Shown here piece by piece: positions 21,015 to 28,348 of a stretch of DNA of 64,000 bases (position 1 is its first letter; the number at the start of each line of letters is the position of its first letter). The stretch is from Fimbriiglobus ruber (GTDB taxonomy: Bacteria; Planctomycetota; Planctomycetia; Gemmatales; Gemmataceae). The DNA lies in assembly GCF_002197845.1 (NCBI RefSeq), contig NZ_NIDE01000019.1, forward strand, positions 248,001 to 312,000, given 5' to 3'. The notes below the pieces were generated by a model. The model did not search any database and was not told where the DNA came from. It saw nothing but the letters and a program-made list of their open reading frames with translations. Both the position numbers and the translations under genes were made by a program.

Positions 21015-21248
21015 TAACGATTTCCCTGAAATTCAGCCACTGCTGCACTTCTCTCATCCGGCGGCCACAGCCACTCAACGCCGGGACAAACAATACTCAC
21101 GTCCGGCGCGTTATGTTTATACGCGAGAAATGCCCGCCCGATTGCGGATCACAAGATGAGGTACGCTTGGTCAGGTCTTCCAACACATGCGGTTTCTGCC
21201 GAATAGTCTATCGGGGAAGGATTTGTGGGCTTTGAGGAGGTAGCAGGG

Positions 21249-22612
21249 ATGCTTCTGAATCGTGTGATCGACCGGTTCCTCGCTCGTACTCCGATGGCCG
21301 TGGCGATTCGGGGCACGTTGGAGTACGCCTTCGCCCCGGAACCGCTCGATGCGATCTTCGAGGCGATTGTCGGCGACCGCGACGACCGGCAACTGCTGTT
21401 CTCGACGTGTGCGGACTTGATGGGCACGGTGGTCACCCGGGTGAACCGTTCGATGAGTGCCGCGTACCGGGCCGCCGAGGACATGCCGGTGTCCCTGTCC
21501 GCCGTGTACCAACGCCTGCCGCGGATGCCGCTCGCGGCGGGCCGCGAGTTGGTCCGACACACGGCCGAACGGCTCGAACCGGTGGTTCGGGCCATGAACG
21601 GGGCGGCGGCCGATCCGTTACCCGGGTACCGGACCAAAGTTCTCGACGGGAACCATCTGGCCCACACCCCGCGACGGCTCAAGATCCTGCGGGATGTCGC
21701 GGCCGGCCCCCTGCCCGGTCAATCCCTGGTGGTCCTGGACCCGGCTCTGGGATTGGCCCGGGATGTGATTCCGTGCGCCGACGGTCATGCCCAAGAGCGG
21801 TCCCTGCTGGAGGCCGTCATCGAAACGATTCGAACGAAGGATCTGGTGATCGCGGACCGGAACTTCTGCACCACCCGGTTCGTGTTCGGGATCGCGGCTC
21901 GGGGCGGGTCGTTCGTCATCCGTCGGCATGCCGCCACCTTGTCGTGGGAGAAGGAATCCGCCTGGGAATCCCGGGGTCGAACCGACACCGGGGCGTGGAG
22001 GAACAGACGATTGAGTTGATCGGCCCGGGTGACACCACATTGACCGTCCGTCGCATTCGGCTGACCCTGGATCAGCCGACACGAGATGGTGACCAGGTGA
22101 TCGAATGGCTAACGAATCGGCCGGCCCGTGCCGCAACCGCGGCCGTGGTGGCCAAACTCTACCAGGGTCGATGGACGGTGGAGGCCCTGTTCCACCGTCT
22201 GACGATGGTCCTGGGATGCGAGGTCGATACACGGGGCTACCCGCCGGCCGCATTGTTCGGGTTCTGTGTGGCGTTGGCGGCGAGCAATGCGTATGCGACG
22301 ATTCGGGCCGCCGTGCGGGGTGAGCACGGGCATGAGACCGCCGAGACGTTGTCGGACTTCTACGTGGCGGCCGAGTTGGAGCGGACCGTCGAGGGGATGA
22401 ACGTGGCGGTGCCCGACGAGGCGTGGGAGCCGATCCCCGGGTGGACGGCGGAGGAAATGGGGGCGTGGCTGCGGTCGATCATGCGACAGGCCCGCTTGGA
22501 ACGATACGAGAAAGCGAAACGGGGGCCGAAGAAACCCAAGCCGCGACGCACCCGGTTCGCGGCCAAAAAACACGTCGCCACCTCACGTTTGATCAGTGGT
22601 GAACAAACATAA
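21249..22612 (+). pseudogene. IS4-type transposase, frameshifted
   Basis: The ATG at 21249 is preceded by aggaggtag. The first part encodes the N-terminal region and two DDE aspartates (KVLDGNHLAH; LVIADRNFCT). Near 21994 the frame is lost: the sequence reads TDTGAWRNRR to a stop at 22019, whereas the -1 frame continues with VEEQTIELIGPGD and reaches the catalytic glutamate in YQGRWTVEALFHRL, ending with a basic tail. The best explanation is a one-base deletion in an IS4-family transposase; no slippery heptamer supports programmed frameshifting. I could not identify convincing terminal inverted repeats, so the element ends are not given. Confidence 0.8.
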
Positions 22613-22776: not shown

Positions 22777-24534
22777 TCACCGTGGCAGGCCGGTCAGATC
22801 CGTCACGCGATACCCCCTGGGCACGACCTCCTGGGCCAGTTTGACGCACCGGGCCGCCGCCTCGGCGGGCGTTTTGCCGGCCGCCGGGGCGGCGGTGATG
22901 ACGACCGCCTGGTATCCGTTGACGCGGACCACCGAGGGAGATGCGAGAGCCTTCCGGACCTTGAGAATTTTTCCGAACGTGACCAAATCGCCGGTCGCGG
23001 AGCGAACCCTGAGATCTGTCAGATCATCAATCTCACGGGAGAACTCCGGTGAACCCTGGACGATCACCCGATACGTCTGGTTGAACTTATAGAAGTCGGT
23101 CGCATAGACTCCGCCGAGGGTCGCCTGAAGCGTGGTGAAGACGTCGTCCAGTTCCACTCCCGCTATGGCGCACCGATCGCGGTCGACGTTGACGGCGAAG
23201 TGCGGCAAGTCCGGCCCCGGGAACGCGGCCGGGCTCACCAGGCCCGGCTCTTTCTTTAACCTCGCGACGACGCGGTCCGCGACTTCGCGGTTCGACTCCT
23301 CGTCCGAAAAACCCAGGTTTGTTAGGGCAACCCGTACCGGAAACGCCTCTTTCCCCGGCGGCGCGCTGCCGACGCGGAACGCGGCCGCCGGGATCGCGGC
23401 GAGCGCGCGTTCGACGTCCGCCACGGTCGGTCCGCCCTCCGCGGGAACTTTGACGAGGATCTTGGCCGCGTTCGGCGTGCGCTCCTCCGCGAAGGCCGCA
23501 ACCGTCGGTTTCCCGGGAAGCCCGCGGACCAACTCCGCGGCCCGCGCGACGACCTTCTCGGTTTGCTCCGGCAAGGCCGTGCCCGGTACCCGCACATCGA
23601 CCTCCAGCAGGTGGTCCGCAGTTCGATCGGCGAAGACGTCGAACCGGATGCCCGGAGGCAGGTCGGCGTATTCCTCGACCTTGCGGAATTGGTCCGCGGT
23701 CAACCGTCCGGGCCACGCCGTAACAGCGACCAGCGCCGCCGGCTTTCCATTGAGGATGGCGAATCCGCCCGACACGAACCTAAATTCAACTCGGGCGACA
23801 TCCCTCAATCGGAGGATTTCTCCGGTCGCATTGGCTTTGAGGATTATGGACGAGAACTGATTGATGTCCGTGAGCCGGCCGGACGCGGTGACGGCATGCT
23901 GGAGCGCCGGACCGCGGATGATCCCGCCGGCCGCGATCGGTGTGTTCTGCCGCCGCAGCGCGTCGACCACGGTACCGACCGTCTGGCTGTAGGCGGTCAG
24001 TCTGGCCATGTTCAACTCGACCCGAACGAAGGGCTCATCGACACCAGCGATCCGAACGTCGACCACACCGGGGACGCGGACGAGTCCGAATTTGAGGCGG
24101 GGTGCAACGGATCCCGCCAGGAATTGTGCGTCGTGTGTGGCGTCCTCGCTGGTGAGGGCGAACCAGTACGTCGGCGGCCCGGCCGACAGTTTCCGGACCG
24201 GCATCCCGAATTGACGGCAGGGGGACGGGACCACGGGCAGAGCCAGATTCACCCGATTCTGCACCACGACCTGGGCGATATTCAGATCAGTCTTCGGGTC
24301 GAAAAACAGAGTGACCGTACCGGTACCGTCGGCGCGTGCCTCGGACTCGATCCGGGTTATTCCCTCGACGCCGGAAATCTGCTTGAACAGCGGAACTAGG
24401 ACCGTCTCGTCAACGGTCCGGGCGTCCGCCCCGGGGTAAGTCGCGCTGACCCGTATGACGTGGGCCGAGGGGTCGACGGCCGCGGCCGGGAGCGCACATG
24501 CCAATAGTAAAACGGCGGTGATCGCGAGTCGCAT
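22777..24534 (-). CDS. RND-efflux porter-domain protein lacking all membrane helices
   Basis: The start at 24534 gives a signal peptide (MRLAITAVLLLACALPAAAV), after which the sequence follows the first periplasmic loop of AcrB/MexB-type pumps (VSATYPGADARTVDETV; DLNIAQVVVQNRVNLALP; LTAYSQTVGTVVDALR; LRLRDVARVEF). It then passes directly, with no hydrophobic segment, into the second periplasmic loop (VDVRVPGTALPEQTEKVVAR; LPHFAVNVDRDR; VRVNGYQAVVITAAPAAGKT) and stops just where TM8 would begin. At 585 residues it is about half an RND pump, and none of the 12 helices is present. It cannot use the proton gradient as a canonical pump does. The upstream gene encodes the matching membrane-fusion protein. 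Confidence 0.82.
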   Translation of the reverse strand: MRLAITAVLLLACALPAAAVDPSAHVIRVSATYPGADARTVDETVLVPLFKQISGVEGITRIESEARADGTGTVTLFFDPKTDLNIAQVVVQNRVNLALPVVPSPCRQFGMPVRKLSAGPPTYWFALTSEDATHDAQFLAGSVAPRLKFGLVRVPGVVDVRIAGVDEPFVRVELNMARLTAYSQTVGTVVDALRRQNTPIAAGGIIRGPALQHAVTASGRLTDINQFSSIILKANATGEILRLRDVARVEFRFVSGGFAILNGKPAALVAVTAWPGRLTADQFRKVEEYADLPPGIRFDVFADRTADHLLEVDVRVPGTALPEQTEKVVARAAELVRGLPGKPTVAAFAEERTPNAAKILVKVPAEGGPTVADVERALAAIPAAAFRVGSAPPGKEAFPVRVALTNLGFSDEESNREVADRVVARLKKEPGLVSPAAFPGPDLPHFAVNVDRDRCAIAGVELDDVFTTLQATLGGVYATDFYKFNQTYRVIVQGSPEFSREIDDLTDLRVRSATGDLVTFGKILKVRKALASPSVVRVNGYQAVVITAAPAAGKTPAEAAARCVKLAQEVVPRGYRVTDLTGLPR

Positions 24535-24644
24535 GGTCGGTTCCTGAGAGGAGGCTAGCCGGTGAATACGAAACGACTTCACGCGGTCGGGCACGGGCAC
24601 CGTTTCGCACAACCGCCGCGTTGCACGGCGCGATTACTTGGTGG

Positions 24645-25790
24645 TCACTTCTCTCGACCGGTTTTCGGGCGACGCGCGGCCTCTTCCGGCTTCCGAAATT
24701 CAACTTCCACCCGGTCTCCATCGCTGATCAGTTGGATTCCCTCAAGAACGATCTTGTCGTTCACATCGAGTCCCTTATTGACGACAAAAAGATCATCGAC
24801 TTCGTGTTGGACGACGATCTTGCGCGGATGGACCTCATTATCCTTGCCGACGACGTACACATACCGCCCGTCGAGAATTTCAAACGTGACTCGCTGGGGA
24901 ATGACGGTGGCGTTCTTGACCGTCCGGCAGAACAGCACGGTGCCCGTCTGGCCGTGACGCAGCAGGCGGTCGGGGTTCGGGAAATCCGCGCGAAAGGGGA
25001 TGTTACCGGTTCCGTTGTTGAACCTGCCTTCGACGGTAACGGCCTTACTGGCGGCATATTTGAATTTGCTGTCGTTCGCCAGCACGAGTTCGGTTCGCTG
25101 GTCCTCGTGACGCTGGTCCATGTTGCCCATGTAATCGAGGTAGCGGGCTTCGGGGACGTTGAAATAAACCCACATCACGCTGTTATCCGACAGGGTCGTG
25201 AGAACATCTTTCCTTTCGACAAGGCTGCCCTCATGGATCATGAGGCGATCGAGTAACCCGTCAAAGGGTGCCCTGACAGTCGTAAAGTCCAGTTCGGCTG
25301 CCGCCAGGTCCGCCTTGGCCTGGGCTTTGGCCAGTTTGGCTTCGGAGAGTGCCACCTCGCGCTGTGAGACCACGGGCGGGTCGGTCGCGGCCAGCTTTTT
25401 GAGGTTGTCAAACTCGAGCCTGGCGACCCGGACCTCGGCCAATTCGGTGTCCAGCCTGGCCTTGTAAAGTATTGGTGAGACTCTGAACAGCACATCGCCC
25501 CTTTTCACCGCCTGGCCCTCCTTGACCGGAATCGGCTCGAGCTGCCCGTCCTGCAGGGCGCGGACTTCGATGTGCCGCTGGGCGAGGATCTGGCCGGCGT
25601 AACGATGCGTGACGACGACATCCGTGACCCTGGGGCTGGTGACCACGACCTTCGGCCGGAGGGGATCGGTACCAGCAGCCCCTGGCTTGACGCCCGGTTC
25701 CGCCGGGGCTTGGCCCCGGGCATCCGGGGACGCACCCCCGCCCCCGACGGCCAACCCGAAAACCCAGACGATCCGATGCGTCCGCATCAT
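24645..25790 (-). CDS. RND-type membrane-fusion (periplasmic adaptor) protein
   Basis: The start at 25790 (MMRTHRIVWVFGLAV) leaves a plausible export signal; upstream in-frame ATGs exist but give unlikely leaders. Its 381 residues have the HlyD/MexA order: lipoyl half 1 (HIEVRALQDGQLEPIPVKEG with GDVLFRV), helical hairpin (about 125-175, coiled-coil), lipoyl half 2 (DFTTVRAPFDGLLDR, the classic signature), beta-barrel and membrane-proximal domains (GRYVYVVGKDNEV, FVVNKGLDVNDKIVLEG). It would link an inner-membrane pump to an outer-membrane channel. Here its only visible partner, 110 bases downstream, is the helix-free RND protein. Confidence 0.88.
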   Translation of the reverse strand: MMRTHRIVWVFGLAVGGGGASPDARGQAPAEPGVKPGAAGTDPLRPKVVVTSPRVTDVVVTHRYAGQILAQRHIEVRALQDGQLEPIPVKEGQAVKRGDVLFRVSPILYKARLDTELAEVRVARLEFDNLKKLAATDPPVVSQREVALSEAKLAKAQAKADLAAAELDFTTVRAPFDGLLDRLMIHEGSLVERKDVLTTLSDNSVMWVYFNVPEARYLDYMGNMDQRHEDQRTELVLANDSKFKYAASKAVTVEGRFNNGTGNIPFRADFPNPDRLLRHGQTGTVLFCRTVKNATVIPQRVTFEILDGRYVYVVGKDNEVHPRKIVVQHEVDDLFVVNKGLDVNDKIVLEGIQLISDGDRVEVEFRKPEEAARRPKTGREK

Positions 25791-26241: not shown

Positions 26242-27465
26242 ATGAGTGAATCCGTCCTGATCGTGGACGACGAAGACGGTGTCCGGCGAACGTTCCGCGA
26301 GTGGCTGACGACCGGCGGGCTGAACGTTAAGGTGTACGCGGCCGCGGACTCGGAGGCCGCCCTCCTCGTCGCCAACGAACACCCGATCGACCTCGCCGTC
26401 CTCGACTGGAACCTCGGGTCCGGGAGCGACGGGCTCCAACTTCTCGAAGACCTCGTCGAGTTCCACCCGGACGTGGTCGCGATCCTGGTCACCGGGTTCG
26501 CCAGTCAGGCGACGCCGCTGGAAGCCCTCCGGATGGGTGTTCGCGACTACCTGGACAAAAACCAGGATCTGAACAAGGAGACGTTCCTGGCCGCGATCCG
26601 CCGGCAGCTCGACAAGATTCGCCCGGCCAAGCGGCAGCGCGAGTTGAACATCAGTCTAGCCGCGTTCCGGGGTTCGGTCGAGAAGGTGCTGCCGCTCGTC
26701 CGGTCGGCGGCCGCCCTGAACGACCCGGTCCCGCTCCCGGAGGCGATCCACGCGCTCTTCCGTTTCCTACTCCGGGCGACCGGCGCGAAAGACGGGGCGT
26801 TGCTCGTCCGCAACATCGGCGCCGATGGCGTGGATACCGCGGCCGCCTACGGGATCGACGGCAAGTCGCTTCCCGCGCCGGCGGTTCCGTTCAATAAATC
26901 GCTGGCGGCGAGCGTGGTCAGTTTGCAAGACCCGTGCGTCATGAATGAGTTCGACCCCGCGGCGGCCGGGGCGGTCGAACTGATGCCGTTCGAGCGGGGG
27001 CGGAAGTCGATCCTGGCGGCCCCCCTCCGCGTCGGAGCGGGCATCCATGTTGTGTTGGAGCTGTTCGACAAACCGGTATTCACGGACGACGATCGCAAGC
27101 TGGTGGCCGCGGGAGCCGACATCGGGGCGGAGTTGCTCCGTCAGGCGCTCGCCGAGCGGCAAACACACCGGTTGTTGTTCGACGCCGTGGCTGCCGCCCT
27201 GAAGGCGAGCGACGACGTCAGCCGGACGCTCAGCTCTCCCCCGACCGGCGGGTCCGAAGCCCGGCCGTCGGACGCCGTGCTCGAACACCTGAAGAAAGGC
27301 ATGGCCGCCGACAGCAACGCGGTCGCCGACGCGGACACCGCCATAAAATTAGTCGAAGCCGTTCGCGTCCTGGCCGTTCGGCACGGACCGGCCGCCGTGA
27401 AGCATTGCATCCGCGTGGTCGAGAGCCTGCGCGGGACACTCGACGAGATTACCGGAACGGAGTAA
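26242..27465 (+). CDS. Response regulator with REC and GAF-like domains
   Basis: The ATG at 26242 follows ggggaggg. The REC domain (1-125) has the acidic pair D9/D10, phosphoacceptor D55 in LAVLDWNLG, T/S in LVTGFAS and K in YLDKNQ. A linker leads to a GAF-like domain (about 150-300: ALFRFLLRATGAKDGALLVR; SILAAPLRVGAGIHVVLELF), then a helical C-terminus. There is no HTH or catalytic output domain, so it probably acts by protein-protein interaction. It lies 64 bases upstream of the S8 peptidase gene, suggesting that the peptidase is its partner or output; no kinase is adjacent. Confidence 0.85.
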   Translation: MSESVLIVDDEDGVRRTFREWLTTGGLNVKVYAAADSEAALLVANEHPIDLAVLDWNLGSGSDGLQLLEDLVEFHPDVVAILVTGFASQATPLEALRMGVRDYLDKNQDLNKETFLAAIRRQLDKIRPAKRQRELNISLAAFRGSVEKVLPLVRSAAALNDPVPLPEAIHALFRFLLRATGAKDGALLVRNIGADGVDTAAAYGIDGKSLPAPAVPFNKSLAASVVSLQDPCVMNEFDPAAAGAVELMPFERGRKSILAAPLRVGAGIHVVLELFDKPVFTDDDRKLVAAGADIGAELLRQALAERQTHRLLFDAVAAALKASDDVSRTLSSPPTGGSEARPSDAVLEHLKKGMAADSNAVADADTAIKLVEAVRVLAVRHGPAAVKHCIRVVESLRGTLDEITGTE

Positions 27466-27529: not shown

Positions 27530-28348
27530 ATGAACGACCCCGGACCTACCGTGTTCGAAGAGATATTCGCGATTCTCTCCCCGGACCGCATCCTCCGAGA
27601 TCCCCGGGCGACGGGGGACGGGGTCTCCGTTGCCGTGATCGACTCGGGGGTGGAGCGGGCGGTCCTGGAAGAAAAGTTTCTCAAGCAAAAGGTGGAGATT
27701 CGGCCGATCGAGGGGGCGGTCTTCCGCCCGGAGGACACTACCCCCCGGCCCTACGACGGCCACCAGTCGTCCCCGCACGGAACGACGGTCGCGGACATCA
27801 TCCTGACGATCGCGCCGCGGGCGAAGCTGTACTCGGCCGACGTGTTCGGGCCGCAGGGGACGTGCGAGGTCGAGACCGTCATCGCCGCCCTCCGCCACGC
27901 GATCGAGGTCTGGAAGGTCAAGGTCATCAACCTGTCGCTCGGCGTGCCGGAACACCGCCTCCAACAGCTCCCGCGGCGGCAGCAACTCTTGAAGGCCATT
28001 GAGGAGGCCTATTTCAAGGACGTCCTCGTGTTCGCGGCCGCGCACAACGAACACCCACTGACGCGGAGTTACCCCGCCGTCTTCGCCCCGCCACTCATCT
28101 CGGTAGACAAGGCTCTCTTCGACGACCCGTTGCAGTTCGCGTACAAACTCCGCGAGTCGATCGAATTCCAGGCCCACGCCCGCGGGTATCTCGGCCCGTT
28201 CGCGCGTGAACCGGCCACGAGCTGGGCGACCCCGCACCTGGCGGGCATCGCCGCCCGCATCCTGTCGCTGAAGCCGGACCTGAAGCCGTTCGAGATCAAA
28301 ACCATCCTCTACTGGATGTTCCGGGCCGCGGGTGAAAACGGCGCGTAA
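27530..28348 (+). CDS. Cytoplasmic S8 (subtilisin-family) serine peptidase
   Basis: The catalytic triad is complete: Asp38 in VAVIDSGVE, His83 in SSPHGTTVADI and Ser231 in ATSWATPHLAG; the oxyanion Asn173 lies in FAAAHNEHP. At 272 residues it is a minimal subtilase core with no signal or propeptide, so it is expected to act in the cytoplasm, as do intracellular subtilases and those found in regulatory and conflict operons. The active-site motif has tryptophan where GTSMA is usual. It lies directly downstream of the REC-GAF regulator and is probably co-transcribed with it. Confidence 0.85.
   Translation: MNDPGPTVFEEIFAILSPDRILRDPRATGDGVSVAVIDSGVERAVLEEKFLKQKVEIRPIEGAVFRPEDTTPRPYDGHQSSPHGTTVADIILTIAPRAKLYSADVFGPQGTCEVETVIAALRHAIEVWKVKVINLSLGVPEHRLQQLPRRQQLLKAIEEAYFKDVLVFAAAHNEHPLTRSYPAVFAPPLISVDKALFDDPLQFAYKLRESIEFQAHARGYLGPFAREPATSWATPHLAGIAARILSLKPDLKPFEIKTILYWMFRAAGENGA

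Follow-up and report, generated by a model that had tools for sequence, protein, structure and literature searches.

Efflux pumps of the RND superfamily are described as proton-driven membrane proteins, and the best-known of them, AcrB, is energised by a proton relay within its transmembrane (TM) helices. The two periplasmic loops of AcrB have also been joined artificially into a soluble fusion, AcrBper, which, according to passages of PMC8617272, is trimeric in crystals with DARPins and binds drugs. Here we describe a natural protein of comparable design, encoded in a window of 64,000 nucleotides from the planctomycete Fimbriiglobus ruber (contig NZ_NIDE01000019.1, positions 248,001 to 312,000). 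Judged by its sequence, this AcrB/HAE1-type protein is a member of a conserved, natural, helix-free RND family of the Planctomycetia, found mainly in Gemmataceae and reduced to the porter and docking half of a pump. No description of a natural helix-free RND protein was found in the titles and abstract openings of the open-licence literature.

Architecture of the helix-free protein

A first-pass annotation, made from the letters of the window, had read the protein as a signal peptide followed by the first periplasmic loop up to the start of TM2 and by the second loop up to the start of TM8. Alignment with MexB and hydropathy both agree with this order. Pfam recognises ACR_tran alone in the protein, in two separate stretches (269.8 bits; cut-off 28), and the best of the NCBIfam models for full-length permeases stays far below its cut-off (275.2 against 1250 bits). 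Positions 25-315 of the helix-free family profile correspond to MexB 34-331 and positions 316-588 to MexB 569-860. Because the profile skips MexB 331 to 569 and ends near 860, the stretches that hold the twelve helices are missing from the window protein. In a Kyte-Doolittle scan (19-residue window, threshold 1.6) hydrophobic segments were confined to residues 1-27, and no TM segment was detected after the N-terminal signal, as had been expected. Given its signal peptide, the product should be a soluble periplasmic protein. The proton-relay residues of HAE1 pumps sit in TM4 and TM10, and the helices that bear them are absent from the profile alignment. Having no helices and hence no proton relay, the window protein alone cannot be a proton-driven pump, and the earlier statement that it makes no use of the proton gradient stands.

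The claim that the two loops are cleanly fused holds, with one correction. They meet directly and without a linker, the end of loop 1 (FDVFADRT) being followed at once by the start of loop 2 (ADHLLEVDV). When 38 full pumps were aligned with the helix-free profile, the end of loop 1 fell on position 315 itself in 34 and the start of loop 2 on 315-317 in 33, the loops being 230-421 residues apart. Loop 2, however, is no plain copy of its counterpart in the pumps: the median length of its PC1 part is 78 residues across 15 helix-free proteins and 94 across 35 pumps, and the PC1 switch-loop segment comprises 23-27 residues in all 15 helix-free proteins measured and 30-40 in all 37 pumps measured. 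These switch-loop measurements, like those of the DN arm given below, were made without G712, the family member outside Gemmataceae.

The family and its adaptors

Profile searches yielded 16 helix-free RND proteins in 13 genomes. Fifteen of them occur in 12 of 95 Gemmataceae genomes and one, G712, in another family of the Planctomycetia. A profile of five members recovered 14 full-span members in 12 of the 95 genomes, the weakest with an E-value of 2.5e-111 compared to 1.5e-102 for the best single pump loop. With a profile of 14 members, 15 were obtained; the first 14 were the profile's own rows, a new fusion protein (G116) scored 5e-170 and was followed by a pump loop with 1.6e-116. Across 397 genomes sampled from the class, the same 15 and G712 (3e-183) were recovered, and among the matches listed for 392 genomes sampled from the phylum, just the three of the window's genome were full-span. 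The family, class and phylum samples overlap, and 3-14 candidates were scored per genome in the wide searches. Absences are therefore soft, as few candidates were scored and the five-member profile missed one fusion that the larger profile found. Phyla beyond Planctomycetota were covered through plasmid records only: 4447 records matched, in 72 of them a single place spanned 80% or more of the query, and the 15 matches inspected were full pumps that matched in two pieces over about 2.4-2.5 kb.

A tree built from the loops alone, with 16 helix-free proteins and 37 pumps, places all helix-free proteins on one side of a 100/100 branch, and an earlier tree with 14 of them agrees on this separation. 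The four closest orthologues are 48-63% identical, their frames are intact and most differences fall on third codon positions. The ratio of non-synonymous to synonymous substitutions (dN/dS, NG86) is about 0.28-0.51 among these four, 0.26-0.37 for three adaptors and 0.50 for the two fusions, values that are rough owing to base composition and saturation and that were obtained by simple division. They indicate purifying selection among these close relatives. Together with the two fusions to adaptors, these observations support the first-pass proposal of a selected architecture rather than decay, and the 15 further helix-free relatives show that the protein is not a recent deletion among full-length relatives.

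The family comprises two subgroups. The first consists of ten members and includes the window protein, G070, G088 and G712. In six of the ten, a hydrophobic segment at the N-terminus exceeds the threshold; in G000b, G000c, G061 and G066 it stays below, which makes their export less sure. The second subgroup, with moderate support (86/79), contains G012, G025, G080, G097 and the two fusions. In G012, G025 and G080 a long hydrophobic stretch persists at the N-terminus and may serve as a membrane anchor. Beyond residue 45, 15 of the 16 members have no segment above the threshold. The exception is the G077 fusion, whose RND part reaches 1.77 in a segment where PN2 begins; we read this segment as a buried strand.

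A search of planctomycete genomes for helix-free genes beside adaptor genes had been suggested, and such pairs do occur. In three of the 16 members the gene lies directly behind an adaptor gene: in the window, in G070 (locus L114, a Planctomycetota metagenome-assembled genome) and in G088 (locus L115, Limnoglobus roseus PX52, Gemmataceae). In two more, G077 and G116, the adaptor forms the N-terminal part of a single protein of 964-966 aa, so that five of 16 members have an adaptor adjoining or fused. In the adaptor tree, branches with 100/100 support separate the operon adaptors from the fused ones and place the two types in different clades, which implies at least two associations. Repeated pairing with two adaptor types is good evidence that these proteins function with adaptors.

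The adaptor of the window had been called adjacent and normal-looking. Its gene lies upstream of the RND gene at a short distance (Table 1), and its RND-type domains score above their cut-offs (TIGR01730, RND_mfp, 188.4 against 94.9 bits; HlyD_D23, HlyD_3 and Biotin_lipoyl_2 above the Pfam cut-offs). The N-terminus fits the description less well, as it lacks a strong hydrophobic segment (hydropathy maximum 0.83), and this weak hydropathy leaves the export signal uncertain. The adaptor groups with those of the pumps L070/L071, whereas the helix-free protein does not group with these pumps. Since the two affinities disagree, loss of the helices within a single pump operon is ruled out for the window pair. 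The same genome has three more adaptors with 55-69% identity to that of the window; two adjoin full pumps and the third is part of a sigma-factor fusion. Each of the three genomes with the helix-free operon encodes, elsewhere, a complete operon of adaptor, pump and outer-membrane channel (OEP) with an adaptor of the same subfamily. Within the window itself, none of the 33 OEP matches of this genome was found (C19:248001-312000). Type-1 adaptors, counted by eye, are present in eight of 12 genomes with a helix-free gene and in 24 of 83 without (Fisher p 0.019), an association that is not main evidence since genome size and kinship confound it.

Several observations stand beside these results. 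The window's genome contains three helix-free proteins among 32 matching RND places, the other two being 38% and 32% identical to that of the window. A tandem RND pump of this genome is apparently split, probably by a frameshift, into a frame of 374 aa with the start of loop 1 (L012:1147-2271, minus strand) and one of 851 aa with the rest (L065, from 5673, minus strand). The G712 gene (L188:8488-10227) encodes a window-type orthologue, 48-55% identical to three close relatives, with no adaptor adjoining; horizontal transfer is possible. An ECF (extracytoplasmic function) sigma factor is fused to an RND-type adaptor, as a single chain of 660-694 aa, at L163:5902-7884 (G000:C1:808902-810881) and at L197:5634-7718 (G063), and at E <= 1e-60 both halves were matched only in these two of the 95 family genomes, the window's genome being the first. 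The genes around the pair in the window are included in Table 1.

Table 1. Features of the helix-free RND locus and its neighbours, in window coordinates
Feature	Position	Strand	Remarks
Helix-free RND (AcrB/HAE1-type) protein	22777..24534	-	585 aa, ATG at 24534; frame intact
N-terminal signal peptide, about 20 aa, replacing TM1	24475..24534	-	Sequence and hydropathy scan; cleavage site inferred from A-x-A pattern
Periplasmic loop 1 (PN1, PN2, DN), about residues 26-305	23620..24459	-	Profile alignment; end corresponds to TM2 start of pumps
Periplasmic loop 2 (PC1, PC2, DC), about residues 306-582	22789..23619	-	Profile alignment; stop corresponds to TM8 start of pumps; PC1 shortened
Gap between adaptor gene and helix-free gene	24535..24644	-	110 bp; both genes on same strand; operon inferred
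RND-type periplasmic adaptor (membrane-fusion protein; HlyD_D23, HlyD_3)	24645..25790	-	381 aa; Pfam/NCBIfam; upstream of helix-free gene
Response_reg receiver-domain protein	26242-27465	+	Start 451 bp from adaptor gene, divergent
Subtilase-like gene	27530-28348		After receiver-domain gene
DDE transposase	21225-22612	+	3' of helix-free gene; weak Pfam matches just below cut-off; two overlapping frames (21225-22019, 21407-22612), frameshifted or programmed

Proposed role and alternatives

The best explanation overall, to which we assign a probability of roughly one half, is that the helix-free protein serves as a non-energised, adaptor-bound binding and docking module of the periplasm. The first-pass annotation had offered a passive carrier, a binding protein or a partner assembling on another pump, all of them putative roles, among which we put such a module first. 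Protein and adaptor would form a complex without an energy source of its own. This complex would act as a ligand-binding and docking module that captures a ligand passively, and it may then hand the ligand to, or assemble with, a complete system of adaptor, pump and outer-membrane channel encoded elsewhere. We favour this passive module because PN1 and the docking domains are kept, because the pairing with adaptors is repeated and because engineered AcrBper is trimeric in crystals and binds drugs. PN1, including the pore-helix sequence, and the docking domains DN and DC are the best-kept parts of the family: with subdomain borders following AcrB, the identity between helix-free proteins and pumps is 0.48 for PN1, 0.37 for DN, 0.31 for DC, 0.29 for PN2, 0.22 for PC1 and 0.20 for PC2, compared to 0.66, 0.53, 0.48, 0.49, 0.40 and 0.40, respectively, among pumps. 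PC1 and PC2 nevertheless carry conserved positions specific to the family, for example at profile columns 387, 396, 403 and 408. More broadly, these proteins may represent a natural motorless class of RND machines, in which a secreted porter and an adaptor, or one chain of both, would work independently of protons and relay a ligand to tripartite systems or gate them. This reading, which we hold tentatively and as a whole, includes a single origin of the family in Planctomycetia and at least two joinings with adaptors.

Several points weigh against the passive module. PC1 and PC2 are the loosest domains among pumps too and their extra loss in the helix-free family is moderate, so that the gradient of conservation is a family trait only in part. 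With the switch loop shortened, a drug pocket like that of AcrB is unlikely. The DN arm interlocks the trimers of AcrB; in the helix-free proteins it has a median length of 37 residues compared to 42 in pumps, and is 17 residues long in both fusions, which leaves trimerisation unproven. No adaptor was found beside the other 11 of the 16 members within the 9-20 kb read, the gene of G097 starting 345 bp from a contig end with its upstream side out of view. A structure prediction from three sequences (window, L114 and L115) gave an unusable model, with a predicted local distance difference test score (pLDDT) of 46.6 and a predicted template modelling score (pTM) of 0.26, and the fold is assigned from sequence homology only. 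Finally, the hand-over of a ligand to a pump is a bare proposal in which both the ligand and the partner pump are putative.

Alternatively, the protein could be a decoy or assembly regulator that tunes tripartite pumps by occupying the adaptors of genuine pumps, either by itself or with its own adaptor serving as a swap partner. The same genome has a complete adaptor-pump-OEP operon whose adaptor is 69% identical to that of the window. The window adaptor also lies among adaptors from pump lineages that are not sister to the helix-free protein, and the better conservation of PN1 and the docking domains compared to PC1 and PC2 would also suit a decoy. Still, the existence of fusions with another type of adaptor points to a dedicated complex more than to titration, and a mere plug would not need family-specific positions in PC1 and PC2, so that we regard this alternative as unlikely. 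Less likely again is a periplasmic receptor, formed by adaptor and helix-free protein, whose ligand-bound state is read by another protein. The adaptor subfamily has been recruited outside pumps, as the sigma-factor fusions in the window's genome, with an adaptor 63% identical to that of the window, and in G063 show. In addition, a receiver-domain gene diverges from the window adaptor gene at a distance of 451 bp, a MerR regulator with a TipAS antibiotic-recognition domain (L063:6508-7293) lies about 1.7 kb from the G025 gene, and two-component genes are found a few kb from the G066 member. However, the sigma fusion has no RND domain, and regulators are not a conserved feature of these loci: the G070 adaptor is preceded by genes for DUF1559 proteins and the G088 adaptor by a GmrSD-like gene, with no regulator among the genes checked there.

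It is highly improbable that the missing helices and the proton coupling come in trans from a membrane protein encoded separately. The 32 RND matching places of the window's genome, often two per pump, could contribute a membrane domain, but a scan with the loop profile, which is blind to helix-only genes, none being sought specifically, detected no other RND-like open reading frame of at least 200 aa in the stretches read around 15 members and G712. A decaying or recently deleted pump devoid of function has a next to negligible chance and is ruled out for the window type, as the patchy spread over 12 of 95 family genomes and the long branches of G000c, G025 and G061 are outweighed by 16 open frames in 13 genomes behind a 100/100 branch, by dN/dS of 0.28-0.51 in close orthologues and by two natural fusions.

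Comparison with known systems

With AcrB/MexB-type (HAE1) permeases the helix-free proteins share both loops, with the subdomains PN1, PN2, DN, PC1, PC2 and DC, and the best E-value of the family profile to a solved pump is 8.6e-142. As in pumps, an adaptor gene adjoins, here for three of the 16 members. Unlike these permeases, the helix-free proteins have neither a TM domain nor a proton relay, their PC1 switch loop is shorter, and in the window protein a signal peptide stands in for TM1. In this family, which in part stays linked to adaptors through operons and fusions, energy coupling is separated from the periplasmic job of a pump, namely binding, docking and perhaps gating. The window adaptor scores above the cut-off of the RND periplasmic adaptors (TIGR01730; AcrA/MexE type) and differs from the usual ones in its partner, a helix-free RND protein; in two genomes the adaptor is even the N-terminal part of one chain. 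With the partners locked in a 1:1 ratio, such single chains of adaptor and porter lend themselves to studies of the fit between adaptors and RND porters.

Of all known objects, the engineered soluble AcrBper (PDB 5EN5, 7B8R) comes closest, as it has the same architecture of loop 1 and loop 2 with the membrane part removed. The helix-free profile aligns with it in one stretch (5en5 31-588, E 7.4e-113; 7b8r 30-588, E 4.6e-113). Unlike the planctomycete proteins, AcrBper is man-made, was crystallised with DARPins, retains the AcrB sequence and its drug pocket and has no adaptor, whereas the planctomycete proteins are natural, have a shortened PC1 and are in some cases fused to an adaptor. The helix-free family is a natural counterpart of AcrBper.
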